Shown here: piece after piece, positions 2 through 44,774 of the stretch
Numbering within the stretch: the stretch's first letter is position 1
Layout of the letters: each line of letters starts with the position of its first letter
Source of the DNA: an uncultured Ignavibacteriota bacterium
Lineage (GTDB): Bacteria > Bacteroidota > Ignavibacteria > UBA10030 > UBA8401
Direction of reading: 5' to 3'
Length of the DNA stretch: 64,000 nt
Assembly: GCA_903861125.1 (NCBI GenBank)
Contig: CAIOTF010000023.1
Location: forward strand, 124,001-188,000
Made by a program: the position numbers and the translations under genes
Notes under the pieces: model-generated
Told to the model about the DNA's origin: nothing
Seen by the model: the letters and a program-made list of their open reading frames with translations, nothing else
The model's database searches: none

Positions 2-931
2 GTGAACTGGATACAGGATCATACGTTTTTTAATGCGGCTCAATCGCTGAATGCACGAATCGTTTTATCGTCGATCCGTTCCGCGATGAAGTCGCTGAAC
101 ATCACCGATCCGGTCATCATCAATGCGTTCAATCCGTCGTTCGGCGTACCGCTGCACGGGAAATTGGACGAGTCGCTGCTTTTGTATTACTGCTACGATA
201 ATATTTCCGCAGCCGGCTGGCTGGGAAAACACGGCGAAAATTCCGAGAAACGCTTTGCTGAGTTGGCGGACGTCATCGTCACATCGTCCGATCAGCTGGC
301 GGAACGTTTTGCACCATACCGTAATAAAACATCGGTGGTAAAAAACGGCGTTGATTTTGCTTTAATGCAGCACGGTTTTTCGGCTGTAGAAAAAAAGAAA
401 GAACATGTTGTGGGATATATCGGCAGTATTGACGAGCGTGTTGATTATGATCTGCTTGATTATGTGATCGGACGTTTGAAGGATTACCAATTCCGCTTTA
501 TCGGCCGGTCGACAAACGAACGGTTCGCAAAACGGCTGAGCATTCACCCGAATGTTGAATTACTCGGAGCGCATCCTCTTACTGCTCTTCCGGAATTTTT
601 AAGGCAGATGGACGTCTGCATTATACCGTTTGCAAAGAATGAATTTAACCGTTCCGTCTATCCTTTGAAAGTGAACGAATATTTTGCCGCCGGAAAACCG
701 GTGGTGATGACAACCTTTGCCGATCTGCCGGAATTTAAAGGCATGGCCGCAATCGCCGACACTGCCGAAGAATTCATCTCCGGCATCGTGCAATCGCTCG
801 AAGCTGATTCCGATGAACAGCGCCTGCACCGACAAAATTTTGCACAATACCAGTCGTGGACTTATCGAGCAAAAGAGCTTGCCCGGGTGATCGAGTCGGC
901 ACTGAGCGAACGGAAAGGTGTTCGATCATGA
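2..931 (+). CDS. GT4-family glycosyltransferase, 5'-truncated by the window edge
   Basis: This is the C-terminal 309 residues of a GT-B fold glycosyltransferase that would transfer a sugar from a nucleotide sugar in the cytoplasm, probably onto an exopolysaccharide repeat unit. The C-terminal half shows the GT4 donor-site pattern: GYIGSIDERVDYDLL opens the second Rossmann domain, and VNEYFAAGKPVV is the E-x7-E-like nucleotide-sugar site. Family members are usually 360-400 residues, so the GTG at base 2 is probably an internal valine and the gene begins outside the window. The stop overlaps the next start codon (ATGA), so it is translationally coupled to the flippase. The acceptor and donor sugars cannot be told. 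Confidence 0.85.
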   Translation: MNWIQDHTFFNAAQSLNARIVLSSIRSAMKSLNITDPVIINAFNPSFGVPLHGKLDESLLLYYCYDNISAAGWLGKHGENSEKRFAELADVIVTSSDQLAERFAPYRNKTSVVKNGVDFALMQHGFSAVEKKKEHVVGYIGSIDERVDYDLLDYVIGRLKDYQFRFIGRSTNERFAKRLSIHPNVELLGAHPLTALPEFLRQMDVCIIPFAKNEFNRSVYPLKVNEYFAAGKPVVMTTFADLPEFKGMAAIADTAEEFISGIVQSLEADSDEQRLHRQNFAQYQSWTYRAKELARVIESALSERKGVRS

Positions 932-2259
932 TCAAGAGAGTCGTATCCCTCGCACAGACACCAGAAGGAGTTTCCACATTCTCCAACCTTATGAGTTCCG
1001 GTTTTGGTTTGCTGAGTTTCTTTTTTATCACACGGGCATTCTCGCCGAATGCACTCGGACAATGGTTCATTTTTCTCTCCGGTTCCACGCTGGTCGATAT
1101 GCTCCGCATCGGCCTGGTCAATAAGGGATTTATTTATCTGTATTCCGGCAAAGAAGGCAGCGGCAAATCCGTTGTTATCGGAAGCGGACTGGCGCTATTC
1201 ACCGTATTCAGCGCAGTTATTGCGCTGCTCCTGTTCGTATCGACCATTATTCTTCCTTCGGTAACAGATCCAAACTCGTCGTGGAGAATGTTCTTTATCT
1301 GGTATCCTATTTTTGCCCTCTTGTCCGTTCCGAACAATGTTGCGGAGTGGATCGCGCAGGCCGAACTGCGTTTTCACCGTTCAGTCGCAACACGGATCAT
1401 TGTCCGCGGAGGATTTCTGCTCTTCACCGCAGTCAATTTTTTTCATCATATTTTTTCCATTGACGAACTTGCAATCATATTTATTGCGCTCAATGCCGGA
1501 GCATCGCTGTTAACGCTTGCAATGTCGTGGACACCTCTCTCTTCGTTGAGGTCCATCCGCATGGATACATTGAAGCAGCTTCTTCAGTTCGGAAAATTTA
1601 ATTCCATCACCCAGGTCGGATCGAATCTGCTCCGCAGTTCGGACTCATTTTTTCTCGGAAGTTTTCTCGGTCCGATAGCGGTAGCCCGGTACGGCGTGCC
1701 GGCAAAACTGCTGGAAATCGTCGAGCTTCCGCTGCGGAGTTTCGGCGCCGCCGCATATCCCGAATTTGCACGGGCGCATCATGCCGGCAATATTGAAGAA
1801 ATGAAGCGGTCGTTCGTGAAAAATGTTTTCCGGCTGACGCTGTTCGTTCTGCCGATCGTTGTGCTGAGTGCTGTGTTCGCGCAGCAGTTAACCCTTCTGT
1901 TCGGCGGAGTGCAGTACCGCAATACCGCAAACATACTCCGATTTTTTCTGGCATACTGTCTTCTTATTCCTTTCGACCGTTTCAGCGGCATCTTTATCGA
2001 TAGTATGAACATGCCGCATTATAACGCCGTAAAAGTGTGGCTAATGCTCGGGGTTAATTGTATTTCCGATATTATCGCTTTGTATTTCTTTGGAACCGTT
2101 GAAAGTGTTGCCGCTGCATCGCTTGTAACATTCTTTTTCGGGACCGTTGTGAATATTGTTATGATCAAATCGCTGACCGGCTGGAATCCGATCAGTAAAG
2201 AATCGTTCACCCATTCTGTTCGTCAGCTTGCGGTCTCAGTCAACGGGTTCAGCCGATGA
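928..2259 (+). CDS. Polysaccharide flippase (Wzx-like, MOP/MATE superfamily)
   Basis: This 443-residue integral membrane protein has about 12-14 hydrophobic segments and starts MIKRVVSLAQTPEGVST. It resembles Wzx/RfbX and related polysaccharide biosynthesis proteins, which flip lipid-linked repeat units across the inner membrane. The ATG at 928 is chosen because it sits in an ATGA overlap with the previous gene and follows GGAAAGG; the open frame goes back to 856, but that part lies inside the upstream gene. It overlaps the following polymerase gene by 4 nt. The order glycosyltransferase, flippase, polymerase is typical of Wzx/Wzy-dependent clusters. The exact substrate is unknown. Confidence 0.85.
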   Translation: MIKRVVSLAQTPEGVSTFSNLMSSGFGLLSFFFITRAFSPNALGQWFIFLSGSTLVDMLRIGLVNKGFIYLYSGKEGSGKSVVIGSGLALFTVFSAVIALLLFVSTIILPSVTDPNSSWRMFFIWYPIFALLSVPNNVAEWIAQAELRFHRSVATRIIVRGGFLLFTAVNFFHHIFSIDELAIIFIALNAGASLLTLAMSWTPLSSLRSIRMDTLKQLLQFGKFNSITQVGSNLLRSSDSFFLGSFLGPIAVARYGVPAKLLEIVELPLRSFGAAAYPEFARAHHAGNIEEMKRSFVKNVFRLTLFVLPIVVLSAVFAQQLTLLFGGVQYRNTANILRFFLAYCLLIPFDRFSGIFIDSMNMPHYNAVKVWLMLGVNCISDIIALYFFGTVESVAAASLVTFFFGTVVNIVMIKSLTGWNPISKESFTHSVRQLAVSVNGFSR

Positions 2260-3731
2260 AACAAACAGCCCCCTTTCTCGCAATCGGAGCGGATAAGATA
2301 ACCACATTCGGATATCTGTCGTTCATCGTAAGTTTCTTTGTTATCATCGGAATTACGGTCGCCCGGCTTCAGTTCATCGGCATAGGTCTGTTTCTGGTTC
2401 TTCCTTTCATTATGATCTTCCTCTTCAAATTATTCACATCTGCTCAGGTTGGATTCCTGTCGTTATTGTTCTGGGCGTTTCTGGGTATCGGTTCCGGCAA
2501 ATATGCTTCGTCGGCTCTCGGCGGATCCGTGGTCGGATTGGGAATAGATTTTCTTCTTCTGCTTATCCTGTTTGCCGCATCATTTTCCAGAATGGTGAAG
2601 AAGGAAGATCTGCAGTACCTGAAATCACCGACGATGGCATTTACCATCGTCTGGTTCGGCATCAATGTTTTGCAGATGTTCAATCCGTTAAGTCCTGGAT
2701 TCGAAGCGTGGTTCTATGCCGGACGCGGTGTTTCGTTCTATATGCTCTTCTGCATACCGCTTGCCGTGGTGCTGTTCAACAAACAAAAAAATCTTGAAAA
2801 ATTTCTGCTGGTGTGGATCATTCTATCCGTTATCGGAACGATATGGGGAATGAAACAAAAATTTCTCGGATTGGACAGAGCAGAGACCGATTGGCTGATG
2901 CGTCCTGCAAATTTAAAAACACACCTTCTGTTCGGACAGCTGCGCATCTTTTCATTCTATACCGATGCAGGACAGTTCGGCGCGGCCCAGGGCCATGCAG
3001 GTGTAACCGCATTGATCCTTGCAATGGGACCTTCGTCAAAAAGAAAAAAAATATTCTACGGTATCGCCGGAGTGCTCTGCCTATACGGGATGATTATTTC
3101 GGGAACCCGCGGCGCCATTGCCGTGCCTGCGGTAGGATTCCTGATATATCTTGTGCTGAGCAAGAACTGGAAAATTCTTTCAATTGGTATACTGCTCTTT
3201 GCCGGTGCATATGGATTTTTAAAATACACATACATCGGCCAGGACAATTACGACATTCGGCGGCTGCGGACATCGCTCGATCCGAACAATGCTTCGCTCC
3301 ACGTCCGTTTGGTGAACCAGGCGCGTCTGGCGGAATATTTAAACTCACATCCGTTCGGCGGAGGGGTCGGTGCCGGAGGTTTCTGGGGTAACAGATTCAA
3401 ACCGGGTTCATTTCTTGCCGATCTCGCGCTGGACAGCTGGTACGTGCGTATCGCATCGGATTATGGCTGGTTCGGACTCGCGTATTATCTTGTGATGATC
3501 CTGTATTTCATCTTCTCCGGATTCTTTGTGGTATTCCGTATGACCGATGAGGGCTTCCGTCAACAGCTTGCAGCAATCTATGCGGGAATGGTCGGGGTTG
3601 CCGTTGCCAGTTACGGAAACCAGGTGTGGGGACAAATGCCGACAGGGATCATTATCTATATTAGTCTCGCATTTCTATCCGTCGTGCCGATGAAATACAA
3701 GCACTTATATTCGAAGCCAAAACTGCTCTAA
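2256..3731 (+). CDS. O-antigen ligase / Wzy-type polymerase family membrane protein
   Basis: This 491-residue protein has at least 10 hydrophobic segments. A large periplasmic-type loop around residues 340-400 contains LHVRLVNQARLAEYLNSHP followed by a Gly-rich GGGVGAGGFWG stretch, as in the Wzy_C / O-antigen ligase family. Members polymerise lipid-linked repeat units or ligate glycan to lipid A, using undecaprenyl-PP-linked substrate at the outer face of the inner membrane. It follows the flippase with a 4-nt overlap, so a polymerase role is favoured. Sequence alone cannot separate polymerase from ligase. Confidence 0.8.
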   Translation: MKQTAPFLAIGADKITTFGYLSFIVSFFVIIGITVARLQFIGIGLFLVLPFIMIFLFKLFTSAQVGFLSLLFWAFLGIGSGKYASSALGGSVVGLGIDFLLLLILFAASFSRMVKKEDLQYLKSPTMAFTIVWFGINVLQMFNPLSPGFEAWFYAGRGVSFYMLFCIPLAVVLFNKQKNLEKFLLVWIILSVIGTIWGMKQKFLGLDRAETDWLMRPANLKTHLLFGQLRIFSFYTDAGQFGAAQGHAGVTALILAMGPSSKRKKIFYGIAGVLCLYGMIISGTRGAIAVPAVGFLIYLVLSKNWKILSIGILLFAGAYGFLKYTYIGQDNYDIRRLRTSLDPNNASLHVRLVNQARLAEYLNSHPFGGGVGAGGFWGNRFKPGSFLADLALDSWYVRIASDYGWFGLAYYLVMILYFIFSGFFVVFRMTDEGFRQQLAAIYAGMVGVAVASYGNQVWGQMPTGIIIYISLAFLSVVPMKYKHLYSKPKLL

Positions 3732-3739
3732 ACTGCTCC

Positions 3740-3806
3740 TTTTGTCGAAGAAATAACCCTGTTCATCGAAAATCTCTAATTTTTACAACCATAACAGCTA
3801 TTTTTG
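3740..3806 (+). promoter_or_regulatory. Putative activator-dependent promoter upstream of the 3831 glycosyltransferase
   Basis: A TATTTTTG box at 3799-3806 matches the Bacteroidetes minus-7 consensus TAnnTTTG and lies 24 nt before the ATG. No good minus-33 TTTG is present at the usual spacing. Instead CCTGTTCATCGAAA (3758-3771) begins 41 bp before the box. A weaker direct copy, TTTTGTCGAAG, starts 21 bp further upstream at 3740. The same 14-mer at the same distance from the same box lies before the epimerase gene at 41983. This looks like a tandem regulator site replacing a minus-33 element; that function is inference. Confidence 0.5.
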
Positions 3807-3830: not shown

Positions 3831-4733
3831 ATGCTTAAAAACTTTGACAGATTTTTACTGCCGCGATGGGTTCAACAGTCGTGGAATATTCATGAACTGA
3901 ACAATGGTTCCGAAGACAAACTCTATGCAGAGATACGGTGGGGACTGCAAAAATTCCGCACCCAAAATCCGGTGGTCTCCATTGTCATTCCGGCGTGGAA
4001 CGAAGAAAAAACAATTGCAAGGACCTTGTACTCATTGTCGAAGATCGAGACAAAATATCCGACAGAGCTGATCATCGTCAACAACAACTCAACCGACAAT
4101 ACACAATCCATTCTTGATGTGTGCGGCGCGCAGTCCATACTTGAAACAAAACAGGGAATTGCACAGGCGCGGCAGACCGGACTTCTAGCCGCAAAAGGAA
4201 CGTACGTACTTTCCGGAGATGCCGATACATTATATCCCGTTGCATGGGTAAATATGCTGATGGAAGAATTAACAAAAGAGGGTGTCGTGGCTGTGTGGGG
4301 AAAACATTCCTTTGTTCCGGGAGATTCTACACCGCGATCGACCTTTGCTCTCTATGAAATGATAAAACAATTTCTCTACCGGTTCCGCGAATATCACCGG
4401 CCGTATCTGAATGCCATGGGTGCAAATGTGGGTTACAAAAAAGAAATTGCATACCGCGTTGGCGGATATGATACGACTGCACGGAGAGGATCGGATGGAC
4501 GGCTGGCGATGGCAATGTGGAAACACGGAACAATCGCCTCCATGCGTTCTTCCAAAGCGACCGTGTGGACCGATGCACGGCGATTCAATTTTGACAGCGG
4601 CATACTCCATTCATTGTTCCGCCGAGTTATGAAAGAAATACCGAGGATCGGCGAATATATCGGCGTAACAAAACGCGACATCACCAAGCTTTCCGGATTC
4701 ACCGGCAATGCAAAACCATTAGGACAGGAATAA
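3831..4733 (+). CDS. GT2-family glycosyltransferase
   Basis: This 300-residue GT-A fold enzyme has the N-terminal signature VSIVIPAWNEEKTIARTLYSL, then NNNSTDNT and a DxD-like metal site in SGDADTLYP. GT2 enzymes transfer a sugar from a nucleotide sugar with inversion. There are no clear membrane segments, so it is probably cytoplasmic or peripheral. The ATG at 3831 is preferred over an upstream TTG at 3804: AGGA lies 8-9 nt before it, and the TTG overlaps the promoter-like TATTTTTG box. It follows a 99-nt gap and is the first gene of a second transcription unit in this cluster, with the next gene 5 nt after its stop. Confidence 0.85.
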   Translation: MLKNFDRFLLPRWVQQSWNIHELNNGSEDKLYAEIRWGLQKFRTQNPVVSIVIPAWNEEKTIARTLYSLSKIETKYPTELIIVNNNSTDNTQSILDVCGAQSILETKQGIAQARQTGLLAAKGTYVLSGDADTLYPVAWVNMLMEELTKEGVVAVWGKHSFVPGDSTPRSTFALYEMIKQFLYRFREYHRPYLNAMGANVGYKKEIAYRVGGYDTTARRGSDGRLAMAMWKHGTIASMRSSKATVWTDARRFNFDSGILHSLFRRVMKEIPRIGEYIGVTKRDITKLSGFTGNAKPLGQE

Positions 4734-4738
4734 CGGCT

Positions 4739-5914
4739 ATGGAATTTGTCAATGCCGCTGCATACGGCTACATCGGATTTTATGTCTGCTATCTGCTTCT
4801 GTTTGCACTTGCTTCGCGAGTAACAAGAAAGAAACAGATCCCTGCATCCCAAACGCGCATCAACCGTTTCGCCGTGTTATATCCGGTGTACAAGGAAGAT
4901 CATGTTGTGCTGGAATCGGTACGGACATTTTTCAATCAAACATATCCGGACAATGCATTCGATGTTGTTGTTCTGGCGGATTCGCTTCAGCAGTCAACCC
5001 TGCAGGAACTGCAAGCATGCGGAGCCCGAACAATCATTATTGAGGGCGAGAGCAGAACAAAGGCGAAATCGCTGAATCTTGCATTACGGTCACTCGACGC
5101 ATCGAAGTACGATGCCTGCATCGTGTTCGACGCAGACAATATTGTTGGTCCGCATTTTCTTTCCGACGTCAACAAAGAATTCAATGCCGGTGCAACCGCG
5201 CTTCAATGTCACCGCGTTGCAAAAAATCTTAATACGCCGATTGCATTTCTGGATGCACTCAGCGAAGAGATTGCGAACAGCATGCTGCGCAAAGGCCACC
5301 GCGTTCTCGGCCTCTCCTCCGGTCTGATCGGTTCGGGAATGGCGTTCGATTATACCATGTTCAAACGCGTGATGTCCGGGATACACGCAACGAACGGATT
5401 TGATAAGGACCTTGAATTTGCACTATTTAAAAACAACATCGAGATCGAATATGCCGACTATATTCTTGTCTATGATGAAAAAGTACAATCGGCCGACGTT
5501 CTTCAGCATCAGCGTACCAGATGGTTCGCCGCACAATGGAAGAATATCCGCAAAGGATACAGAAGTCTGCGCGAAAACTTTACTGTGGACGGTTTCAATA
5601 AATGGCTGCAGATGATTATGCTCCCCCGCGTTTTTCTGCTGACGGCCTCTTTTCTCTGCACTCTTGCCGCCGGTCTGTCCGGCTCGTTCGCATTGGTACA
5701 GCAATGGCTTCTGCTTGACATACTGCTTGTTGCCGCATTTTTTATAGCAATACCGAACACATTATACCGTAAAGAACTGGTCAATGCGATCATTGCACTG
5801 CCGCGGGCAATACAGGCGCTGCTTGGTGCCGTTCTGAACATCAAATCGGCAAACAAAGGCTTCCTGCATACGCCGCATTCAACATCAACGATCTCTATTC
5901 CGGCGGGAAAATAA
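4739..5914 (+). CDS. Membrane GT2 glycosyltransferase (processive-type motif)
   Basis: This 391-residue protein has an N-terminal membrane segment (about 5-25), a GT-A catalytic domain and C-terminal membrane segments (about 295-350). It shows FAVLYPVYKED at the strand-1 site, VFDADN as the metal-binding DxD, and QHQRTRWFAAQW, which matches the Q/RxxRW motif of cellulose- and hyaluronan-synthase-like enzymes. It probably extends or adds a sugar at the inner membrane. The start has AGGACAGGA about 10 nt upstream. The next gene starts 2 nt after its stop, so they are co-transcribed. Whether it is truly processive cannot be decided here. Confidence 0.85.
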   Translation: MEFVNAAAYGYIGFYVCYLLLFALASRVTRKKQIPASQTRINRFAVLYPVYKEDHVVLESVRTFFNQTYPDNAFDVVVLADSLQQSTLQELQACGARTIIIEGESRTKAKSLNLALRSLDASKYDACIVFDADNIVGPHFLSDVNKEFNAGATALQCHRVAKNLNTPIAFLDALSEEIANSMLRKGHRVLGLSSGLIGSGMAFDYTMFKRVMSGIHATNGFDKDLEFALFKNNIEIEYADYILVYDEKVQSADVLQHQRTRWFAAQWKNIRKGYRSLRENFTVDGFNKWLQMIMLPRVFLLTASFLCTLAAGLSGSFALVQQWLLLDILLVAAFFIAIPNTLYRKELVNAIIALPRAIQALLGAVLNIKSANKGFLHTPHSTSTISIPAGK

Positions 5915-5916
5915 GC

Positions 5917-7110
5917 ATGCGCATCGGCATTGAAGCTCAACGGTTATTACGCAGAAACAAACACGGTATCGACATAGTGGCGCTGAATATTCTGCGCACT
6001 CTTCCTTTGGCGGACACGGTGAACGAGTACGTTCTCTTCACGAGAAACGGCGAGGATACAGCGTGCCTGTCAATGCTTTCAAATATCCGCACCGTTATTC
6101 TGCCGGCATTAACGTACGCGGACTGGGAACAGATCCGGCTTCCGCTGGCAGTTCGAAAAGAAAAGATCGATCTCCTGCTCTGCACAAGTTCAACCGCGCC
6201 GCTCTTCGTTTCCGTGCCGACCATTCTTACGGTGCACGATGTTATTTCGTTCGAGCGTCCGCTCTTTGGCGAACGGGGACAAAGCATTTATCAGCGGCTG
6301 GGGAATGCGTACCGTACGTTCGTATCGCGCCGCGCAATGGCAAATGCGGAAAAGATCGTCACTGTTTCGAATTTCGAAAAAGAACAGATCGTGTTGAGAT
6401 TTCCGCTTCTGCAGAGCAGGGTCAGCGTTATTCATAACGGCGTAGACGCACAATTTTTTTCTACCGCCGGCGAAAAGGATGTCCGCGACGTGCAGCAGCA
6501 GTACGCTCTGCCGCGCAGTTATTTTCTTCACTTCGGCAACAGCGATCCGAAAAAGAATACGGCGTTCGTCGTACGTTCATTTGTTACCTATGCACAAAAG
6601 GCAACCAACATTATTCCGCTGGTGGTAACAGATCTTCCCCGTACAACGGTTGATGCACTGCTTAAAAAATATTCGGCGGAACATCTTTCGAAACATATTC
6701 ATACGCCCGGTTACATTGCTCACGATCATCTGCCGGGAATGTATGCATCGGCTTTAGCTTTGCTCTTCCCGTCCAAACGGGAAAGTTTCGGCCTTCCGAT
6801 TTTGGAAGCAATGGCAGCGGGTGTTCCTGTTATTGCCATGAAAAATTCCGCCATTACCGAAGTGGCAGGCGATGCAGCGCTGTTTCTCCGGTCGGAACAT
6901 ACGCACGAACTTGCCTTGGCGATGAATGTTGTTCAGACAGATTCGCAGAGGGTGATCGCCCAGGTGCAGCGCGGAATAAACCGTGCGGCGGAGTTCGGCT
7001 GGAACCGGGCCGCGGAGCTTTACGCATTACAGTTTGCTTCATTCCGCCACATGATCTCCGTGCCGGTCAATCGTTCATCAAATTATACTGTTCAACCAAG
7101 TTTTCACTAA
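5917..7110 (+). CDS. GT4-family glycosyltransferase
   Basis: This is a full-length GT-B glycosyltransferase of 397 residues. The N-terminal domain starts MRIGIEAQRLLRRNKHGI, typical of the mannosyl/glucosyl GT4 enzymes of exopolysaccharide clusters. The donor site shows HFGNSDPKKN and KRESFGLPILEAMAAGVPV, the canonical E-x7-E motif (ESFGLPILE). It acts in the cytoplasm on a lipid-linked intermediate. It follows the membrane GT2 with 2 nt between them and precedes the lipoprotein gene by 19 nt, so it belongs to the same operon. The sugar is not predictable. Confidence 0.88.
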   Translation: MRIGIEAQRLLRRNKHGIDIVALNILRTLPLADTVNEYVLFTRNGEDTACLSMLSNIRTVILPALTYADWEQIRLPLAVRKEKIDLLLCTSSTAPLFVSVPTILTVHDVISFERPLFGERGQSIYQRLGNAYRTFVSRRAMANAEKIVTVSNFEKEQIVLRFPLLQSRVSVIHNGVDAQFFSTAGEKDVRDVQQQYALPRSYFLHFGNSDPKKNTAFVVRSFVTYAQKATNIIPLVVTDLPRTTVDALLKKYSAEHLSKHIHTPGYIAHDHLPGMYASALALLFPSKRESFGLPILEAMAAGVPVIAMKNSAITEVAGDAALFLRSEHTHELALAMNVVQTDSQRVIAQVQRGINRAAEFGWNRAAELYALQFASFRHMISVPVNRSSNYTVQPSFH

Positions 7111-7129: not shown

Positions 7130-9169
7130 ATGTACGCTGCAACAAAACATCTGTATTCACAATGGATCAAAGGGACACTTACTGTGCTCTTTATTTCCAT
7201 CGCTTTCACCGGCTGCGAATTGCCGCTGAAAACAACGGAACCTACGGTTTCCGCTTCACAACAAAGTACGTTTGATTATGCAACTACCAGGGAAGTAACG
7301 GCAATCGGCACGATCCGTTCCGGAAGCGGAAATGTATTGCCCGGTGTTCCGTTCGCTCTGTATTCCGAAATTCCGACTTCTGCATCACAACCTTTTGCCC
7401 ATGGTGTTAGTGACGAATCGGGAAATCTCAACGCTACGCTCAACCTTCCCACAGCATTCGATAAAATTTATCTGCGGACAAATTATGTCGGATTTCCTGC
7501 ACTGTATGAAATACCAATTATCAACAACCGTGCAAATTTTGAGGATGCCAGGATAGTTACTATCAGACCAACGTTATTGAATAAATCCGGAACGTTAGCT
7601 TCTGGCGCCGCTACATATATACCTGCGCTAAAATATCTTGGAACATGGAAAGCCGACGGAACTCCGAATTATCTTGAACCTGCGCGTGATGTTATCGACG
7701 CTGCATTGCTGGCCCGGTTGAACCAGTCGTTGCCCGAATATCAGTCGGTTGTTAAAACTCATCCTGAATATATCACACCAACCGATAAAAGCACAATTCT
7801 GACAGAAAAAGCCGATGTATGGGTTACATTTATCCATGAAGGAGCGGGATACTTAAATGTACTTGGGTTCTACACCTATCCTGTAGGCAAACCGCCGACA
7901 TCAATAACCGACATCGATTCTATCACCATCGTATTTCCGAATGTATCGTATTCCGGAAGCGGAGGAGGATTATTGTCCGGGGATAAAGTACACATCGGAC
8001 AATTCGGGGCAAATACTGCAATCGGCTGGGTAGCTTTTGCCAATGGCTTTTCCGGCGGAAAAATTTCTACGGGAAACTGGATGTTCTTCTCAAATCAATC
8101 CTTAAATCCTGAAAGTAATATATTGCTGCGTCAGCACAACGTGCTGTTAAATGATGTCGGTTACAACCACACCATTTTAGGCTTTGAAGATATCAAACGC
8201 GATGCGGGAAGTGATCAGGATTTTAACGACGTGATGTTCAGTGTCACTTCAAATCCGGTGGTGGCAATTGCCAAAGAAGGACTTGCCGTGGTAGATACGC
8301 CGCAGGATGCGGACGGCGACGGCGTTCGTGATGCTTTTGATGCATATCCAAACGATCCGAAACGAGCATTTGATTCCTACACTCCCGGATCGGGAAGTTA
8401 TAATACGCTTGTATTCGAAGATCTTTTTCCCGGACGCGGCGATGATGATTTTAACGATCTTGTGGTCGGGTACTCTTCACATCAGATATCAAATGCAAAG
8501 AACGATATCGTTTCTCTTGATATGACATTTGTGCTCCGGTCAATAGGGGCCAGCAATAAACTCGGATTCGGATTTGAATTGCCGGTCTTGTCAAATCAGG
8601 TAGCAGCGGTGAAAATAGATAAAAATAAATTTACGACGGTGCCGCTGAATGGAAACGGAACCGAGGCCGGACAGAAAAATGCAACGGTCGTTCTCTTTGA
8701 CAATGCGTTTTCTCTTATGCAGCGCAATGGCGGTGCGTATGTCAATACGGAACAAAATGTAAATTATTCACAGCCTGAAACGATACGGGTTGCAATCGAC
8801 TTTGCGTCGCCCATCAGCCCCTCTGTTCTTGGGACGGCTCCGTATAATCCGTTCATTTTTGTCAACGGCCGTTCACGAGAGGTTCATTTACCCAACAAAG
8901 CACCGACATTGCTTGCGGATGTAAAATATTTTGGAACATCCTCCGATAACAGTAAGCCGGGCATCGGCAGGTATTATGTTACGAAAGATAATAAACCGTG
9001 GGTCTTAAATATTGTAGGGGGATTTGACTATCCATTTGAAAAGTCAAATATCCAATCAGCGTATGTGAACTACCTGCCGTGGGTAGTAAGCAACGGAAAT
9101 CTCTATAAGGACTGGTACTCTACAAAATCCGGAAATAGAGACGACTCGAAAATTTGGAAGAAAAAATAA
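7130..9169 (+). CDS. LruC-domain lipoprotein with DUF4114/DUF4842-like regions
   Basis: This predicted lipoprotein of 679 residues has a signal peptide ending in FTGC (lipidated Cys29). The N-terminal third contains a carboxypeptidase-regulatory-like beta domain. DQDFNDVMFSV around residue 363 matches DUF4114-type Ca-binding repeats. DADGDGVRDAFDAYPNDP around residue 393 is a thrombospondin-3-like Ca motif, and DDDFNDLVVGY around residue 437 opens the C-terminal LruC (DUF4842) domain. Such proteins are exported and surface associated; no biochemical role is established. It ends the polysaccharide operon and has AAAGGA just before the ATG. A role at the cell surface with the glycan is inference. 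Confidence 0.8.
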   Translation: MYAATKHLYSQWIKGTLTVLFISIAFTGCELPLKTTEPTVSASQQSTFDYATTREVTAIGTIRSGSGNVLPGVPFALYSEIPTSASQPFAHGVSDESGNLNATLNLPTAFDKIYLRTNYVGFPALYEIPIINNRANFEDARIVTIRPTLLNKSGTLASGAATYIPALKYLGTWKADGTPNYLEPARDVIDAALLARLNQSLPEYQSVVKTHPEYITPTDKSTILTEKADVWVTFIHEGAGYLNVLGFYTYPVGKPPTSITDIDSITIVFPNVSYSGSGGGLLSGDKVHIGQFGANTAIGWVAFANGFSGGKISTGNWMFFSNQSLNPESNILLRQHNVLLNDVGYNHTILGFEDIKRDAGSDQDFNDVMFSVTSNPVVAIAKEGLAVVDTPQDADGDGVRDAFDAYPNDPKRAFDSYTPGSGSYNTLVFEDLFPGRGDDDFNDLVVGYSSHQISNAKNDIVSLDMTFVLRSIGASNKLGFGFELPVLSNQVAAVKIDKNKFTTVPLNGNGTEAGQKNATVVLFDNAFSLMQRNGGAYVNTEQNVNYSQPETIRVAIDFASPISPSVLGTAPYNPFIFVNGRSREVHLPNKAPTLLADVKYFGTSSDNSKPGIGRYYVTKDNKPWVLNIVGGFDYPFEKSNIQSAYVNYLPWVVSNGNLYKDWYSTKSGNRDDSKIWKKK

Positions 9170-9223: not shown

Positions 9224-9913
9224 TTACAGCATGTTCAGCCGTTTCATCAGCGTGCTGCGGTAGGAATCGCCGATGGGAATAAGCTTCTTTCCGATAATAA
9301 TGATCGTCTCTTCAATCGCCTTGATCTTTTCCACCCGGACAATGTACGACCGGTGAACTCGAAGAAAATTATCCGAAGGAAGTTTGTTCTCCATCCCTTT
9401 CATGGTTGAATGAACAATGTATTTATTCGTTTCGGTAAAGACATTCACATAATCGCCGAATGCTTCCACCCACAAAATGTCGCGGGTATTCACTTTTACG
9501 AGTTGTGAATCTACTTTCACGAACACGGCATCGTCATTCACCGGATTCTCAGCATCGGACGAGAGGCGCTCTTTCACACGGTCATATGCTTTCAAAAAAC
9601 GTTCATACGTGGCGGGCTTCACAATATAATCTGCCACATCGTATTCGAACGCTTCTACGGCATAATTCTCTTTCGCCGTTACCAGAACAATCTCGGGCTT
9701 ATGGGTGAGTGATTTGATCAGCTCTATGCCGGTCATCTCCGGCATTTCAACATCGAGGAAGACAAGATCAACATTTTCTTTGCGCAGTACATTGGAGGCT
9801 TCAACAGCATCTTTGCACACCACAACCAGTTTCAGGTCGTTCACCCTCTTCACTAACTGTTCAATATTTTTTCTGGACATTTCTTCGTCATCGACGATGG
9901 CACAACGGATCAC
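9224..9913 (-). CDS. LytTR-family response regulator (LytR/AlgR type)
   Basis: This 229-residue DNA-binding response regulator has a receiver domain at 1-120 with the acidic pair DDEE near the N-terminus, phospho-acceptor Asp54 in VFLDVEMPEMTG, the conserved Lys in VKPATYERF and a Thr/Ala switch. A LytTR domain follows at about 130-229 (ILWVEAFGDYVNVFT, FLRVHRSYIVRVEKI). It would bind direct-repeat promoters when phosphorylated. The start lies 11 nt after the upstream receiver gene, which is 18 nt after the large hybrid kinase, so the three form one operon and the kinase is the likely phosphate source. Confidence 0.93.
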   Translation of the reverse strand: MIRCAIVDDEEMSRKNIEQLVKRVNDLKLVVVCKDAVEASNVLRKENVDLVFLDVEMPEMTGIELIKSLTHKPEIVLVTAKENYAVEAFEYDVADYIVKPATYERFLKAYDRVKERLSSDAENPVNDDAVFVKVDSQLVKVNTRDILWVEAFGDYVNVFTETNKYIVHSTMKGMENKLPSDNFLRVHRSYIVRVEKIKAIEETIIIIGKKLIPIGDSYRSTLMKRLNML

Positions 9914-9924
9914 GGCAGACTCCT

Positions 9925-10293
9925 TTATACTCTTCGCAGGATCGCATCGATGCGGGCATCGAGCTCTTCCGGATTGAATGGTTTCACTACATAATCATCG
10001 GCTCCGGCCCGAAGGCACGCGATCCTGTCCGCACTGCTTTCTTTGGATGAAAGAACAATCAGCGGTGCGGCGCTGTGATGCGCGGATGCGCGCACCTTTT
10101 TGATCACCTCAAAACCGCCGATTTCCGGCATGTTCAGGTCCAGAACGATGACGGGTACGGCCGTATTCGCATCAAGCCATTCTACCGCCTGCTTTCCGCC
10201 GTCCAGCAGAATAACATTATACCGTTTCATAAAGAATTGTTTCAGAAGCAAGCGGATGGCAGGTTCGTCATCAACGATTAATAATGTTTTCAT
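9925..10293 (-). CDS. Single-domain response regulator (CheY-like receiver)
   Basis: This 122-residue stand-alone receiver has DDEPAIR near the N-terminus, phospho-acceptor Asp52 in VIVLDLNMPEIGG, a Ser switch in LIVLSSKE and the conserved Lys in YVVKPFNPEEL. There is no output domain, so it probably works as a phosphorelay intermediate or by protein contact. It lies between the hybrid kinase with its Hpt domain and the LytTR regulator in one operon, which fits a relay kinase-REC-Hpt to receiver. Confidence 0.92.
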   Translation of the reverse strand: MKTLLIVDDEPAIRLLLKQFFMKRYNVILLDGGKQAVEWLDANTAVPVIVLDLNMPEIGGFEVIKKVRASAHHSAAPLIVLSSKESSADRIACLRAGADDYVVKPFNPEELDARIDAILRRV

Positions 10294-10311: not shown

Positions 10312-13300
10312 TTATTGTGATTTTTTCCATTGGGTAATATCGTAAAATATTTCTTCACAAAGAACCTCAACTTTTTGCAGGGCATGCCGAAGTTCGTCCG
10401 TGCCGGCCTTGCGGTCCGCCAGAGCTTCCAGCTCCGCCACGAGCGGTTTCAGATCATTGATGCCTATATAGCCCCCTGTCGGCTTCATGGTGTGGGCTGT
10501 TCTCATCAATGCGGCAAGATCGTTCTCCTCCAATGCTTTTTTCATCGCGCCGATGTACGCAGGGGTGTTTTTTTCGAACAGCAGTATCATTTCGGAGATG
10601 AATGCCGGATTATCCGATGCAATACTTTCCAGAAACCGGGTATCAAGATGTTTGAACGCTTTGGGTTTTTGAACGGCGCCGGCTGCTTCAACGGAAACAG
10701 ATCGCAGACGCACATACGGCAATATTTTGTTGTACAGTTCCTCCAGTTCGAACGGCTTCGAAACATAGCCGTTCATGCCGGCTTTGATCGCTCTGGCTTC
10801 CGGATCATACAGAACGGATGCGGTCATTGCAATAATGGGAATGGAACGCTGCGGCTCGTTCAGTTCTGTACGTATTCTTCGTGTCGTTTCAAATCCATCA
10901 ATCCCCGGCATCTGTATATCCATAAGAACAAAATCATACGCGGCCGTCTTCAATTTCGACAATGCCTCGTAGCCATCCGAAGCAACATCAACCTCGACTG
11001 CCCACATCTGCATTGTTTTCACCGCCACCATCTGATTAGCAGGATTATCTTCAACAAGCAATACTCTCCCCTCTAATTTTTTGAACGTGGTCTGACCGCT
11101 CGACCGCTGAACAATCGACTCCTTCTTGTTCAGACTGATGTTCAGCGGAAGTGTAACAATAAATGTAGAGCCTTTTTCCAGAACACTTTCAACGCGTACC
11201 TCACCCTTCATCAGCTGCACCAGCTGTTTTACAATGGTAAGCCCTAAACCTGTTCCGCCGTACCGCACCGAAATATCCTTCGACGCCTGTGAAAATGCAT
11301 CAAAAATTGACTGCAGTTTTTCCGGCGGTATTCCGATGCCGGTATCGGTAACGGAAATTTGGAACATTCCGGTTCTTCCCCGCAGCGAACCCATCTTGCA
11401 CTTAAGTACAACGCTGCCCTGCCCCGTAAACTTTATTGCGTTGGAGAGAAGATTGATGAAGATCTGACTGAGGCGGACAGAATCTCCGACGATTACTTCC
11501 GCAATACCAGGATCTATTTCGAAGAACAGGTCGATCCCTTTTTGTTTTGCCATGGGAAGCATTGCTATGCGTATATTTTCAAGCATCCCCTTCAGAACAA
11601 ATTCGTTTTGATCGATCATCAGTTTCCCCGCCTCGATCTTGGCAAGATTCAAAATGTCGTTGATGATGGCCAGCAGATTATCGCCCGATGATTTTATTCC
11701 CTGAAGCAGCGTCTGCTGTTCGTTCGATAATGGGGTGTTGAAGATCAAATTGGTAAGACCCAGAACTGCATTCATCGGTGTGCGCAATTCATGGCTCATC
11801 TTTGCCAGAAAATCCTGCTTTGCGCGCATGGATTCTTCGGCAAGCTGTTTGGCTTTCATCGTTTCCCATTCCGCTAATTTTCGTGCCGTAATATCGCGGA
11901 CATAGATATTAACGTAACCGGCTGACGAGACAGGAACAAAATGGGCGGCATAGATGGGCGTTCCTTGCTTAGCAGCGATCTCAAATTCCGCAGGTGCTCC
12001 GGTCAGCAGCGCTCTCTCGATGATCGGGCTCCATGCCGAAGGAACAATATTGCCCCGTTCGGCCCCCACTTCGTCCAGCATTTTTTCTCCGGCGGCATTC
12101 AGATACAGAATGGTAAAATTATTGCTGACGCGGAATACCGGATCCGGACTCTCATTCGGGAAACGGGCAAGCTTTTCAATCTCGATTTCATTTTGTTTCC
12201 GAACAGTTATATCATTATACAGCCAAAGATGGCCTTTGTATTCGGAGTCAATAAAAATAGGAATGTAATCGCGTGCAAAGGTTCGTCCATCAATCAACGA
12301 GAGTTCTTCATTCGTAACAATTATTTTATCGTTCAGCACCGATCCGATCCGGCTGATGAATTTTTCCGGCTCTGTGAACATATGTTTGCTCTGTTCCGCC
12401 GAATTCGAACAATCCGTTCCGAGAAGATATTCCGGCTCCACCGGAATGCCGAACATGGTGCAGAAATTTTTATTGATCAGCGTAATATGTCTGGTCTCGT
12501 CTTCCACCAGCACTCCCGCCTGAATATTCTGGATCAGTTTTTCGAGCCGAGAACTGGTCGAACGCAATTTATCGATCAGCGAAATATTGTCGATCGCCAG
12601 CGATGCATAAGTGGCGATAAAATTCGTCAGTTCAAATTCCTGGGGAGTGAATTTAATATCGGACGTCCGGTTGATGGCAAAAGCACCCCATACAACATTC
12701 CCCGCACGCAGAGGATGCACGATTATCTGCTCTTTCTTTATCGTTGCCCCTTTCGGATAGACCGTGCGGGAATCCAGATGGGCATCGGTAATTAATTCGC
12801 TTTTACCGGAAGCAACGATCGATCCGATGATACCTTCGCCGATCGAAATCGTCCAATCGTCAAGATTGGTGGCCTTCCATTCGGCTCCGTCTACGTTGAT
12901 GGGATACAATTTATGTGCGGTATGATCGGCAAGATAGATGGAGAGCGTATCATACTCCACAAGCGATTTGGTCCCTTCCGCAATGACCCTGGTAATATCC
13001 TTTTCGGACTGCACGGAGATCATTTTTTCCACGATCGATCGAAACCGTTCTTCGGACAACCGCAGCTGATTCTCCGCCTGCCGGATGTTGGTAATATCGC
13101 GGCTGATGCCGATGATGCCGAGTACGGTTTCATTGAGACCATAAAAAGGAGACTTGATCGTATCAACCAGCCTCTTGCGGCCGTCGGGATATGTGATCCA
13201 CTCCTCGTTGTGCCGCTGATGAAGCGACTTCAGCATCAGCTTATCCTGACTCCGGAAGAAATCGGCGACATCGTTGTCAAAAAAATCGTGATCGGTCTTT

Positions 13301-14748
13301 CCGACGATCTTGTCCTCCGACAAGCCTACAAACTCTGTAAATGATCGGTTACAACCCAGGTACACACCGTTCAAATCTTTATTAAAGATAATGTCGGGAA
13401 TTGAGTTAAACAGCGAGTTCATCAGACTGGTTTTTTGCGCGAAATTGTTCTGCAGCAGCTTTTGATCGGTGATATCTTCTTTTACGGCAAGATAGTTCGT
13501 CGTTATTCCCTGTTCATTTCTGATCGCCGATATTGTTGCGGACTCCCAAAAAAGTTCGCCGTTCTTTTTCTTATTATGAAATTCTCCGTGCCAGATGCCG
13601 CCGGTCGTCAGGACTTGCCACAATTTTTTATATTCTTCAAGGGGCGTTTCGCCCGATTTAAAAATGCGCGGAGTTTTTCCGATCACTTCTTCCAGACTAT
13701 ATCCGGTCACTTCGGTAAATTTTGGATTAACATACTGTATCTTACCCACAGGATCGGTAATAATAACATACGCCGGACTTTGTTCCACCGCTTGTGAAAG
13801 CTGACGGATCTTCGTCTCTTCTTTTTTCCGTGATGTAATATCCCTATCGGCTCCCCGGTATCCGGTATAATTCCCCGATTCATCGAAGAGAGGAAAACCA
13901 TTGGTCACTACACAGACAAGGTGACCGTCTTTATGCACATTCCAGTTCTCAAGGTCAACAATTGGTCCTTTTTTTTGAACAATCCTATCAAAGATCGCAC
14001 GGACACGCTTTCGTTCGACGGGAGGCATTAAATCAAAAGGGGATATGCCTAAAATCTCGGCAGGAGTAAACCCAAGAATCTGTTCAACCTTATCGGAACA
14101 ATAACAATATTTTCCATCTTCGTTTATTTCCCAGACCCAATCGGATGTGACCTCAATAATGTTCTTGTATTTCTTCTCAGCTGCTTTCAGTAACTCTTCC
14201 GTACTCTTCCGCTCGGTAATATCGACCGCGGTTAACAGACAGCGTGTTCCGTTGGAGGCTGCGCTCCCCTTCATGTGAACAACCATTGGATTCCGGCCAT
14301 CCACCGCCAGAATTACTTCACACTTTTGGACTGAATTATTGTTAAATATTTTTTCCAAAAAAAGATTGAACAATTTCTTTGTCTCGTGGGATACAAAAGA
14401 GGAAAGTTTTCTTTTCTTCAGCCCCGAACGTTCCTGACCGAGCATGGCTGCTCCGCACAGGTTCAATTCTACAATAACCCCTTGTTTTGTAAGCGTAAAA
14501 TATCCGGAAGGAGCATAGTCGTATAATTCGGCATACTTCATCGCCGCCGCTTCGGACTGCTCTTTTGCCAGCCGAAGATCTTCGTTCTGCATTGTCAATT
14601 CAATTTTGTTCACTTCAAGTTCGTGAACAAGGATCGCTGTTTGGGCTTCGGAAAGTACCGAACTTTTTTTCGGATTTTTCTTTTTCGCAGCACGCTCCGC
14701 CTTTGTACGAAGGCCCGCTAATTTTGATTGCTGATCGGTCTTTTTCAT
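10312..14748 (-). CDS. Hybrid histidine kinase: multi-PAS, GAF, HisKA, HATPase, REC, Hpt
   Basis: This 1478-residue soluble sensor kinase has no clear membrane segment. The order is an N-terminal helix, about six PAS or PAS-like domains (roughly 65-570 and 755-965), and a GAF domain (roughly 580-745, with SEERFRSIVEKMISVQSEKD at its entry). HisKA follows with phospho-acceptor His986 (KMSHELRTPMNAVLG), then HATPase (NAIKF, DTGIGIP, GTGLGL), REC with Asp1277 (VLMDIQMPGIDG), and a C-terminal Hpt with His1419 (AHTMKP). All phosphorelay residues are present, so a full His-Asp-His relay is expected, probably to one of the two receivers encoded just downstream. The ligands are unknown. A strong hairpin terminator lies immediately before its start. 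Confidence 0.92.
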   Translation of the reverse strand: MKKTDQQSKLAGLRTKAERAAKKKNPKKSSVLSEAQTAILVHELEVNKIELTMQNEDLRLAKEQSEAAAMKYAELYDYAPSGYFTLTKQGVIVELNLCGAAMLGQERSGLKKRKLSSFVSHETKKLFNLFLEKIFNNNSVQKCEVILAVDGRNPMVVHMKGSAASNGTRCLLTAVDITERKSTEELLKAAEKKYKNIIEVTSDWVWEINEDGKYCYCSDKVEQILGFTPAEILGISPFDLMPPVERKRVRAIFDRIVQKKGPIVDLENWNVHKDGHLVCVVTNGFPLFDESGNYTGYRGADRDITSRKKEETKIRQLSQAVEQSPAYVIITDPVGKIQYVNPKFTEVTGYSLEEVIGKTPRIFKSGETPLEEYKKLWQVLTTGGIWHGEFHNKKKNGELFWESATISAIRNEQGITTNYLAVKEDITDQKLLQNNFAQKTSLMNSLFNSIPDIIFNKDLNGVYLGCNRSFTEFVGLSEDKIVGKTDHDFFDNDVADFFRSQDKLMLKSLHQRHNEEWITYPDGRKRLVDTIKSPFYGLNETVLGIIGISRDITNIRQAENQLRLSEERFRSIVEKMISVQSEKDITRVIAEGTKSLVEYDTLSIYLADHTAHKLYPINVDGAEWKATNLDDWTISIGEGIIGSIVASGKSELITDAHLDSRTVYPKGATIKKEQIIVHPLRAGNVVWGAFAINRTSDIKFTPQEFELTNFIATYASLAIDNISLIDKLRSTSSRLEKLIQNIQAGVLVEDETRHITLINKNFCTMFGIPVEPEYLLGTDCSNSAEQSKHMFTEPEKFISRIGSVLNDKIIVTNEELSLIDGRTFARDYIPIFIDSEYKGHLWLYNDITVRKQNEIEIEKLARFPNESPDPVFRVSNNFTILYLNAAGEKMLDEVGAERGNIVPSAWSPIIERALLTGAPAEFEIAAKQGTPIYAAHFVPVSSAGYVNIYVRDITARKLAEWETMKAKQLAEESMRAKQDFLAKMSHELRTPMNAVLGLTNLIFNTPLSNEQQTLLQGIKSSGDNLLAIINDILNLAKIEAGKLMIDQNEFVLKGMLENIRIAMLPMAKQKGIDLFFEIDPGIAEVIVGDSVRLSQIFINLLSNAIKFTGQGSVVLKCKMGSLRGRTGMFQISVTDTGIGIPPEKLQSIFDAFSQASKDISVRYGGTGLGLTIVKQLVQLMKGEVRVESVLEKGSTFIVTLPLNISLNKKESIVQRSSGQTTFKKLEGRVLLVEDNPANQMVAVKTMQMWAVEVDVASDGYEALSKLKTAAYDFVLMDIQMPGIDGFETTRRIRTELNEPQRSIPIIAMTASVLYDPEARAIKAGMNGYVSKPFELEELYNKILPYVRLRSVSVEAAGAVQKPKAFKHLDTRFLESIASDNPAFISEMILLFEKNTPAYIGAMKKALEENDLAALMRTAHTMKPTGGYIGINDLKPLVAELEALADRKAGTDELRHALQKVEVLCEEIFYDITQWKKSQ

Positions 14749-41873: not shown

Positions 41874-41940
41874 GTTCATCGCCACTTTTCGCCTGTTCAT
41901 CGAAATAATCCGGAAACCGCCGCTGAAGAATGTATTTTTG
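41874..41940 (+). promoter_or_regulatory. Putative activator-dependent promoter of the epimerase operon
   Basis: TATTTTTG at 41933-41940 fits TAnnTTTG. GTTCATCG occurs twice as a direct repeat spaced 21 bp (41874 and 41895), that is two helical turns apart. The proximal copy lies inside CCTGTTCATCGAAA (41892-41905), identical to the element before the 3831 gene and at the same 41-bp distance from the box. AAAGGAAAAA upstream of ATG 41983 is the ribosome-binding site. Confidence 0.55.
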
Positions 41941-41982: not shown

Positions 41983-43017
41983 ATGAAAAAACCAATTTCA
42001 CTGGTCACAGGCTGTTCGGGTTTCATAGGCTCGCACGTTGCGCAGGAATTAATAAAGATGGGTCACACGGTAATCGGTCTGGACGATCTCTCAGGCGGAT
42101 TTGTTGAGAACAATCCCGGCAACATGATCTTTTATAACGGATCGATCACCGATGCAACCCTCGTCAACGGATTGTTTGAACAATATCAGTTCGATTATGT
42201 GTTCCATCTTGCAGCGTATGCCGCTGAAGGACTGAGCCACTTCATCCGCCGGTACAATTACAATGATAATCTTATCGGAAGCATCAACCTTATCAACGCG
42301 GCTGTGAATGCACGCACCGTGAAGAATTTTATCTTCACCTCGTCCATCGCTGTGTATGGTTCCAACGAACCGCCGCTGCGCGAAGCAATGACGCCGAAAC
42401 CGGAAGATCCGTACGGCATTGCAAAGTTTGCCGTAGAAATGGATCTTCACTGCGCTCACAGAATGTGGGGATTGAACTACACGATCTTCAGACCGCACAA
42501 TGTGTACGGTGAGAATCAGAATATCGGCGATCCGTACCGGAACGTGATCGGCATTTTCATGAATCAGATCCTGCAGAACAAACCGATGACGATCTTCGGT
42601 GACGGCTCTCAGACACGCGCATTCAGTTATATCTCCGATGTTGCTCCGATCATCGCCAGCGCCGCAGTGCGGACAGAAGCGTACAATAAAATATTCAACG
42701 TCGGTGCCGATGTGCCCTACTCCGTTAACACGCTGGCAACAGTTGTTGCGCAGGCGATGGGAGTAAAACCGGATATTCAATATCTGGAAGCGCGGAAAGA
42801 AGCATTGCACGCATTCTCCGATCACGAAAATGTTAAAGCAGTGTTCGGCGATCTTATTAAAAATGTTCCTCTGGAAGAAGGTGTGTCACGCATGGCTGCA
42901 TGGGCAAAAGGCTTCGGTGCACGTCCCGGACAGATCTTTGAAGATATCGAAGTGTATATGAATATGCCGCCGTCCTGGAAACGCCTTATTGTTTCGCAGA
43001 CAAAGAAAGCGGCATAA
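41983..43017 (+). CDS. NAD-dependent epimerase/dehydratase (extended SDR, GalE-like)
   Basis: This 344-residue extended short-chain dehydrogenase/reductase has the NAD site TGCSGFIGSH near the N-terminus, GLDDLSGG after strand 2, a Ser in TSSIAVYG and the catalytic YGIAK (YxxxK). These match UDP-glucose/UDP-glucuronate 4-epimerase relatives that make nucleotide sugars for glycan synthesis. HNVYGENQN is typical of the substrate-binding region. It leads the operon; the split GT2 gene begins 11 nt after its stop. The exact sugar cannot be told. Confidence 0.88.
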   Translation: MKKPISLVTGCSGFIGSHVAQELIKMGHTVIGLDDLSGGFVENNPGNMIFYNGSITDATLVNGLFEQYQFDYVFHLAAYAAEGLSHFIRRYNYNDNLIGSINLINAAVNARTVKNFIFTSSIAVYGSNEPPLREAMTPKPEDPYGIAKFAVEMDLHCAHRMWGLNYTIFRPHNVYGENQNIGDPYRNVIGIFMNQILQNKPMTIFGDGSQTRAFSYISDVAPIIASAAVRTEAYNKIFNVGADVPYSVNTLATVVAQAMGVKPDIQYLEARKEALHAFSDHENVKAVFGDLIKNVPLEEGVSRMAAWAKGFGARPGQIFEDIEVYMNMPPSWKRLIVSQTKKAA

Positions 43018-43028
43018 CGGAGAATACT

Positions 43029-43160
43029 ATGGACGCACTTGAACTGTTATTCCTTTTCCTCTCTGCCGTTGTTCTCTATACGTACGTCGGATACGGAATC
43101 ATTTTGTGGACGATGGTAAAGATAAAGCAGTATAAAAAAGCTACCGCGGATTTGCACTGA
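43029..43160 (+). pseudogene. 5' fragment of a GT2 glycosyltransferase gene cut by a tandem-repeat array
   Basis: This frame of 43 codons starts at an ATG with a good GGAG site 6-7 nt upstream and lies 11 nt after the epimerase. It encodes one membrane helix, with MDALELLFLF at the start and LYTYVGYGIIL inside, matching the N-terminal membrane anchor (typically LLYTYVGYP) of membrane GT2 enzymes. Reading then enters the repeat array and ends at the first TGA (43158-43160). The catalytic part of such a protein starts right after the array at 43722. Confidence 0.75.
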
Positions 43161-43699
43161 AAGAACGGATCGTCACAGATAAAAAAACAACCACGGATTT
43201 GCACTGAAGAAAAAAGCAACCGCGGATTTGCACTGAATGAACGGATCGTCACGGATAAAAAAACAATCACGGATTTGCACTAAAAAAAGCAACCGCGGAT
43301 TTACACTGAAAGAACGGATTGTCACAGATAAAAAAAACAACCACGGTTTTGCACTGAAGAAAAAAGCAACCACGGATTTACACTGAAAGAACGGATTGTC
43401 ACAGATAAAAAAACAACCGCGGATTTACACTGAAAGAACGGATTGTCACAGATAAAAAAAACAACCACGGATTTGCATTGAAGAAAAAAGCAACCACGGA
43501 TTTATACGGAAAGAACGGATCGTCACAGATAAAAAAAGCAACCACGGATTTACACTGAAAGAACGGATCGTCACGGACAAAAAAAACCGCGGATTTACAC
43601 TGAAGAAAAAAGCAACCACGCATTTACACTGAAAGAACGGATCGTCACGGATAAAAAAAACCACGCATTTACACAGAAAGAACTGATTTGCACGGAAAA
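43144..43699. repeat. Composite tandem-repeat array, 14 units of two alternating lengths
   Basis: Every unit opens with a variant of CCRCGGATTTRCACTGAA. Long units (45-48 bp) continue AGAACGGATYGTCAC and an A-rich end; short units (26-29 bp) continue GAAAAAAGCAA. The order is L S L S L S L L S L L S L L, the last being degenerate (39 bp). Units are direct, adjacent and without spacers, so this is not CRISPR. The array contains stop codons in the gene direction and separates the two parts of a GT2 gene. Confidence 0.93.
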
Positions 43700-43721: not shown

Positions 43722-44774
43722 ATGTTATACGAACCTAATGTCACAATATTGATCGCCGCATTCAATGAGGCGGATTGCATCAGGGAAAAAGCGTTGAACT
43801 CCCTTGCACTTAATTATCCGCCCGATAAATATGATATCCTTTTCGTCACCGACGGTTCGACCGACGGCACGGAGAAGATTTTGCGCGAATTCATGCATGA
43901 TCCCCGGATCCGTGTTTTTCACAACGGCGACCGGCGCGGAAAACTTGCCGCCGTTGACCGCGGAATGAATTACGTTCCTTCTCCCATTGTCATCCTCACC
44001 GATGCCAATACGATCCTGAATAAGGATGCAATCCGAAATATTGTCCGCCACTATGAAGACCCAAAGGTTGGCGCAGTGGCCGGCGAAAAAAGGATCCGTA
44101 AGGATCTGCAGAACGAAGGGAGCGGCGCCGGTGAAGGCCTTTATTGGAAATACGAGTCCGCTCTGAAGCGTATGGATTCGGAATTGTATTCCGTTGTCGG
44201 CGCGGCGGGCGAACTGTTTTCCTGCAGAAAAGAATTATACCGCCCCGTTCCGCCGGATTCCATCATCGAAGATTTTCATCTTTCCATGTGCATTGCCGCC
44301 GAAGGTTTCCGGGTGATCTACGAACCGGATGCGTTTGCGGAGGAACAGCCGTCGGCTTCGTTCCGCGAAGAGATGAAACGGAAGGTCCGGATCTGTGCCG
44401 GCGGTTTTCAATCCATCGTGCGGCTTCGTCCGCTGCTGAACATGAACCGGTACGGCGTTCTCTCCTTTCAATACATTTCACATCGCGTACTGCGCTGGGC
44501 GGTAACGCCGTTTCTGCTGCCGGTACTCTTTGTTCTGAACGGCATCCTGGCGCTGTACGGAAACAGCGTGTACCAATATCTCTTGGCCGGACAGATCATG
44601 TTCTACACATCGGCGCTCATCGGATATCTGCTTGATAAAGCGCATCTGCGGTCGAAGATCTTTATAGCTCCATTATATTTCACACTTATGAATATTGCCG
44701 CCTATGCCGGTCTGGTTCGTTACCTTAAAGGAACGCAGTCCGCGGTGTGGGAAAAAGCACAACGAAAGAAATAA
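43722..44774 (+). CDS. GT2 glycosyltransferase, catalytic and C-terminal membrane part of the split gene
   Basis: This 350-residue frame starts MLYEPNVTILIAAFNEADCI, normally found about 40-60 residues into membrane GT2 enzymes. It has VTDGSTDGTEKIL, TDANTILNKDAI as the metal site, and EDFHLSMCIAAEGFRVIYEPDA, the acceptor-site signature. Two or three membrane helices follow (about 250-340). It lacks the N-terminal membrane helix, which lies before the repeat array at 43029. Translation from ATG 43722 would have only a weak ribosome-binding site. It may still make an active but less well anchored enzyme, or be a pseudogene part. Confidence 0.8.
   Translation: MLYEPNVTILIAAFNEADCIREKALNSLALNYPPDKYDILFVTDGSTDGTEKILREFMHDPRIRVFHNGDRRGKLAAVDRGMNYVPSPIVILTDANTILNKDAIRNIVRHYEDPKVGAVAGEKRIRKDLQNEGSGAGEGLYWKYESALKRMDSELYSVVGAAGELFSCRKELYRPVPPDSIIEDFHLSMCIAAEGFRVIYEPDAFAEEQPSASFREEMKRKVRICAGGFQSIVRLRPLLNMNRYGVLSFQYISHRVLRWAVTPFLLPVLFVLNGILALYGNSVYQYLLAGQIMFYTSALIGYLLDKAHLRSKIFIAPLYFTLMNIAAYAGLVRYLKGTQSAVWEKAQRKK

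Follow-up and report, generated by a model that had tools for sequence, protein, structure and literature searches.

The DNA sites of LytTR proteins consist of two imperfect direct repeats, each 8-13 bp long, with about 12 bp between them (PMC4064291). AlgR, the LytTR-type response regulator of the alginate genes of Pseudomonas aeruginosa, binds CCGTTCGTC, and its site at rhlI is CCGTTCATC (PMC4064291). At the P2 and P3 promoters of Staphylococcus aureus, the promoter-proximal AgrA repeats form a direct-repeat pair centred near -60, in promoters with poor core spacing and suboptimal core elements (PMC4227749). RcoM and CoxC, which are not response regulators, use direct repeats spaced evenly at about two helical turns, and CoxC, with an N-terminal CO-sensing MHYT domain, is a repressor whose operator overlaps the -35 box (PMC11347149).

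The locus described here lies in a 64,000-nucleotide stretch of an Ignavibacteriota genome (hereafter the window; C23:124001-188000 of genome G000), where a first-pass annotation had reported two identical promoters. We consider it probable (about 0.8), on the strength of the sequence comparisons below, that one linked relay of a hybrid kinase and a LytTR protein activates a dispersed exopolysaccharide (EPS) regulon through shared operators and core promoters. With AlgR this system would share a LytTR-type response regulator, polysaccharide target genes and the site core CCGTTC(G/A)TC, of which CCGTTCATC at rhlI is itself an instance (PMC4064291); we claim a functional likeness only. AlgR sites are often single and far upstream and are not 12-bp spaced repeats, whereas here a strict 21-bp direct repeat keeps a constant distance to the -7 element, with a hybrid HPt kinase nearby and in another phylum. 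The resemblance to AgrA P2/P3 lies in the direct-repeat pair centred near -60 and the suboptimal core, the differences in the quorum sensing targets, the half-site sequence and the core promoter type; that to RcoM/CoxC lies in the even spacing of the repeats, of which there may be a weak third here. The kind of circuit is thus already known in bacteria; this instance is new, and exceeds the first proposal in both size and support, a limited literature search having found no paper describing this regulator or regulon, nor any EPS regulator in this lineage.

A shared architecture in five genomes

The 14-mer CCTGTTCATCGAAA occurs at 3758-3771 (site A) and 41892-41905 (site B), with no other mismatch-free copy in the window, and in each case begins 41 bp before the start of TATTTTTG, a -7 element of the TANNTTTG type (3799-3806 and 41933-41940, plus strand, as are all elements of both sites), just as first reported. 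Each 14-mer contains a downstream half-site GTTCATCG (3761-3768 and 41895-41902), whose first base lies 38 bp before that of TATTTTTG, and exactly 21 bp before it stands the upstream partner that had also been described: the degenerate TTTTGTCG at 3740-3747 in site A, and GTTCATCG (as CCGTTCATCG) at 41874-41881 in site B, where the half-site is exactly CCGTTCATC. The site A partner, with three mismatches, is the weakest of the set; its counterparts in the promoter alignment are TTTTATCG in relative G004 and TTTCATCG in G007. Taken alone and with up to three mismatches, the 14-mer does not stand out in the window (15 occurrences against 9.5 expected), so its significance rests on the whole architecture.

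We searched the 4.19-Mb genome for this full architecture, GTTCATCG, 13 nt, GTTCATCG, 30 nt, TANNTTTG, allowing at most three mismatches in the 22 fixed bases. Five sites were found against none for the reversed pattern, with about 0.02 matches expected by chance (our own estimate, assuming equal base frequencies). The three beyond sites A and B lie outside the window, two just upstream on the same contig (C23:115174 and C23:120787) and one on the minus strand of another contig (C16:27019). Four of the five immediately precede the opening gene of an EPS unit, and the fifth precedes a lone methyltransferase gene. A weight matrix trained only on the sites of the relatives G007, G012 and G002 recovers exactly these five in a scan of about 440 kb, with scores of 27.4 to 59.3, the next best match scoring 6.8.

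The architecture recurs before orthologous genes at eleven sites in four relatives (G002, G004, G007 and G012), and the register of the -7 element of site A is kept in the orthologs. In other genomes the first pattern gave a few isolated three-mismatch matches, all of which disappear with a refined pattern; the latter is present in 5 of the 98 genomes of the order, namely G000 and the four relatives, with no match among the reversed controls; reversed-pattern controls likewise gave 0 in 41 relatives. Two conserved columns extend beyond the first search pattern, CC before and AAA after the second half-site, and conservation is therefore not merely an effect of the search. It should be noted that many of the 16 aligned promoters are orthologous and hence non-independent samples. 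Site B is lost from G004 because the contig carrying its epimerase gene begins inside that gene.

The EPS units behind the sites

The site at C23:115174 is followed by genes for a bacterial sugar transferase (the EPS priming enzyme), then for an epimerase and a UDP-glucose dehydrogenase-type enzyme, and finally for a methyltransferase and another dehydrogenase. Beside this site and divergent from its unit lies a gene for a stand-alone receiver protein (L043:10640-11038, on C23 of G000), conserved in G004 and G007. After C23:120787 come an outer-membrane efflux-type protein (OEP) and a Wzc/chain-length-like protein, and then the GT4, Wzx-type flippase and Wzy-type polymerase genes that open the window (2-3731, plus strand) and end this unit, whose site lies about 3.1 kb before the window.

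Site A precedes a plus-strand unit of two GT2-type glycosyltransferases (3832-4733, PF00535, 9e-26; 4739-5914, GT2-like, PF13641), a GT4-type glycosyltransferase (5917-7110, PF00534 and PF13439) and, as its last gene, a LruC-domain/DUF4842 and DUF4114 protein (7130-9169, PF16130, 9e-56; TIGR04456). The first GT2 gene probably starts at ATG 3832, which we prefer because the upstream TTG at 3804 falls inside the -7 element of site A. Site B precedes, on the same strand, an NAD-dependent epimerase/dehydratase (41983-43017, PF01370) and two GT2 glycosyltransferases (43722-44774 and 44778-45659, both PF00535). Within the family, matches to the epimerase at E <= 1e-60 are restricted to the five motif-bearing genomes. 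A tandem-repeat array (43134-43688; unit like AAAAAAACAACCACGGATTTACACTGAAAGAACGGATCGTCACAGAT, with several nested periods) takes up most of the 704 bp that separate the epimerase gene from the first of these GT2 genes; in G007 and G012 this gap measures only about 90-150 bp.

The remaining site, at C16:27019-27085, is the only one found outside the EPS region, and the single methyltransferase gene downstream (L044:6316-6960, on C16) is kept together with its site in G004, at 97%; any role of the enzyme in EPS would be putative. Each unit of one predicted Wzx/Wzy-type EPS pathway thus bears the same putative control element. The first-pass annotation had spoken of an identical promoter linking two clusters 38 kb apart: the shared promoter stands, and the two clusters turn out to belong to a single EPS regulon, which has five sites or more.

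The candidate regulator

The regulator had been sought among three response regulators in or near the region, of the LytTR (9224), NarL (34388) and OmpR (49184) types, and site type, linkage and co-distribution all favour the first. It is encoded at 9224-9913 on the minus strand, with receiver (PF00072, 1.3e-21) and LytTR (PF04397, 1.5e-21) domains both above cut-off; its best NCBIfam matches, the BtsR and LytR models, fall below cut-off. Its DNA-binding domain carries FLRVHRS, invariant in four orthologs, an instance of the FxRxHrS motif that a reference title in PMC4227749 names for VirR. Orthologs at 62-87% identity are found only in G002, G007 and G012, the next best match in the order being 39% identical, and no motif was found near more distant LytTR homologs (33-47% identity). 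The four genomes with the gene, G000 included, are all among the 5 motif-bearing genomes of 22 (p ~7e-4 by counting, with relatedness ignored). The fifth, G004, lacks it in the assembly, which probably reflects a contig end: its contig C150 stops inside the adjoining LruC gene, the remainder of which is nowhere in that assembly. NarL has no ortholog in any other motif-bearing genome, and OmpR is found in genus mates that have no motif but not in motif-bearing G012.

It is unlikely that the EPS regulon is real and answers to some other protein, such as a second LytTR regulator (for example C43:5063, 38% identical) or an unlinked one. G000 encodes several other similar response regulators, some with LytTR domains, and LytTR gene, sites and EPS genes are passed down together as a module, which confounds co-distribution: the EPS epimerase and the motif share one distribution, so co-distribution marks the linked module rather than LytTR binding and cannot separate the linked LytTR protein from the rest of it. 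Against this, no motif site lies near C43, no match of C43-like identity is found in G002 or G004, NarL and OmpR fail the distribution test, and it is the LytTR gene at 9224 that sits beside or inside the EPS module in G000, G007 and G012. We therefore favour this LytTR protein as the predicted regulator of the sites. Pattern and matrix scans found no paired site before its own gene, and autoregulation is not supported.

Next to the LytTR gene, also on the minus strand, lie genes for a stand-alone receiver protein (9925-10293, PF00072; 72% in L049), kept beside the LytTR gene in G007, and for the proposed cognate kinase, a hybrid histidine kinase with PAS, GAF, HisKA, HATPase, REC and HPt domains (10312-14748). 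Homologs of this kinase directly precede the LytTR gene in G002 and the receiver and LytTR genes in G007; in G012 the homolog lies beside the motif-bearing priming-transferase unit. Between the LytTR gene and site B, the window holds about 31 kb of mostly minus-strand signalling genes (10312-41381), among them several very large PAS/hybrid histidine kinases, a CheB-CheR-PAS protein, an HDOD protein and NarL; in G012 the LytTR gene adjoins the site B unit without this stretch.

G012 belongs to another genus, yet its LytTR protein is 82% identical to that of G000, as against 62% in the genus mate G002, and its module is compact, with the LytTR gene between its only two motif units, in a different gene neighbourhood. 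A tentative reading, which we lean slightly against, is that EPS genes, 21-bp-repeat operators and LytTR regulator move between genera as one self-regulated module, with AlgR-like CCGTTCATC specificity kept across phyla.

Operator, core promoter and proposed circuit

The half-sites recur with a 21-bp period in 16 of 16 aligned promoters, and their length and spacing agree with the published description of LytTR repeats (8-13 bp, about 12 bp apart), making this a predicted LytTR-type operator. Its centre lies 52 nt before the end of TANNTTTG, which corresponds to about -58 to -61 for the predicted transcription start 5-8 nt after TANNTTTG; on that start, the operator stands upstream of and near the core promoter, centred near -60 as for AgrA. 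The -7 element is of the Bacteroidota housekeeping type TANNTTTG, with TA invariant and TTTG mostly kept in the 16 promoters. Exceptions include TACGTTGG in G002 and, before the OEP gene, the poorly matching TATTTTCA (C23:120787 in G000, C38:5240 in G004; TATTTTGA in G007), perhaps a weaker promoter of the exporter unit. The lack of a normal -33 TTTG, first noticed at sites A and B, extends to all 16 promoters: read from the alignment, none has the Bacteroidota housekeeping TTTG at the usual -33 spacing. Together with a pair centred near -60, this absence fits an activator-dependent promoter. There is a hint of a weak third half-site another 21 bp upstream: among 101 offsets, 21 has the highest summed match (50, the mean being 27). 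Offset 12 comes close behind (47), the aligned rows are related to one another, and the extra half-site is visible only in the priming-transferase, OEP and methyltransferase promoters. Sigma-70 and Rfam scans returned nothing useful.

That the LytTR protein is a repressor, or combines repression with activation, instead of being a plain activator has the precedent of CoxC, a LytTR protein that is a repressor on direct repeats (PMC11347149). We think it rather improbable: the CoxC operator overlaps the -35 box, whereas the present pair stops 30 nt short of the -7 element, an upstream placement as described for RcoM1 and most LytTR activators (PMC11347149), and without a good -33 box the promoters would not be strong alone. 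The fixed spacing in all sites and the strong conservation of the 67-nt block could also point to an alternative sigma factor that recognizes an upstream element plus TANNTTTG, with no activator site, and this we regard as very unlikely: the upstream element consists of direct repeats with a 21-bp period and lies too far from the -7 element (30 nt) to serve as a -33 element, its half-site agrees with LytTR sites, and the -7 element itself is of the ordinary Bacteroidota type. A chance likeness of two intergenic sequences, to which the lack of enrichment of the 14-mer with mismatches might lend some colour, is ruled out for practical purposes by the five full-architecture sites with zero controls genome-wide, the conservation before the same genes in relatives and the matrix scan.

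Under the favoured activator reading, the hybrid histidine kinase with its HPt domain (10312-14748) would phosphorylate the LytTR protein (9224-9913), perhaps by way of the receiver at 9925. A phosphorylated LytTR pair would then bind the two half-sites CCNGTTCATCG, a direct repeat of 21-bp period on one helix face, centred at about -58 to -61, and recruit RNA polymerase to a TANNTTTG -7 element without a proper -33 box. The expected outcome would be co-activation of the priming-transferase and UDP-sugar genes, the exporter/Wzc/Wzx/Wzy genes, the GT2-GT2-GT4-LruC and epimerase-GT2-GT2 units and the distant methyltransferase. The initial proposal of activator-type direct repeats common to glycan units is strongly supported by the three additional G000 sites and the eleven before orthologs in four relatives.

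What emerges is a testable predicted EPS regulon, comprising regulator, operator code, five promoters and kinase, in an uncultured lineage labelled Ignavibacteriae/Bacteroidota. Its operator rule is sharp enough to find regulon members from sequence alone, and the predicted circuit would take AlgR-like control of polysaccharides by LytTR proteins into another phylum.
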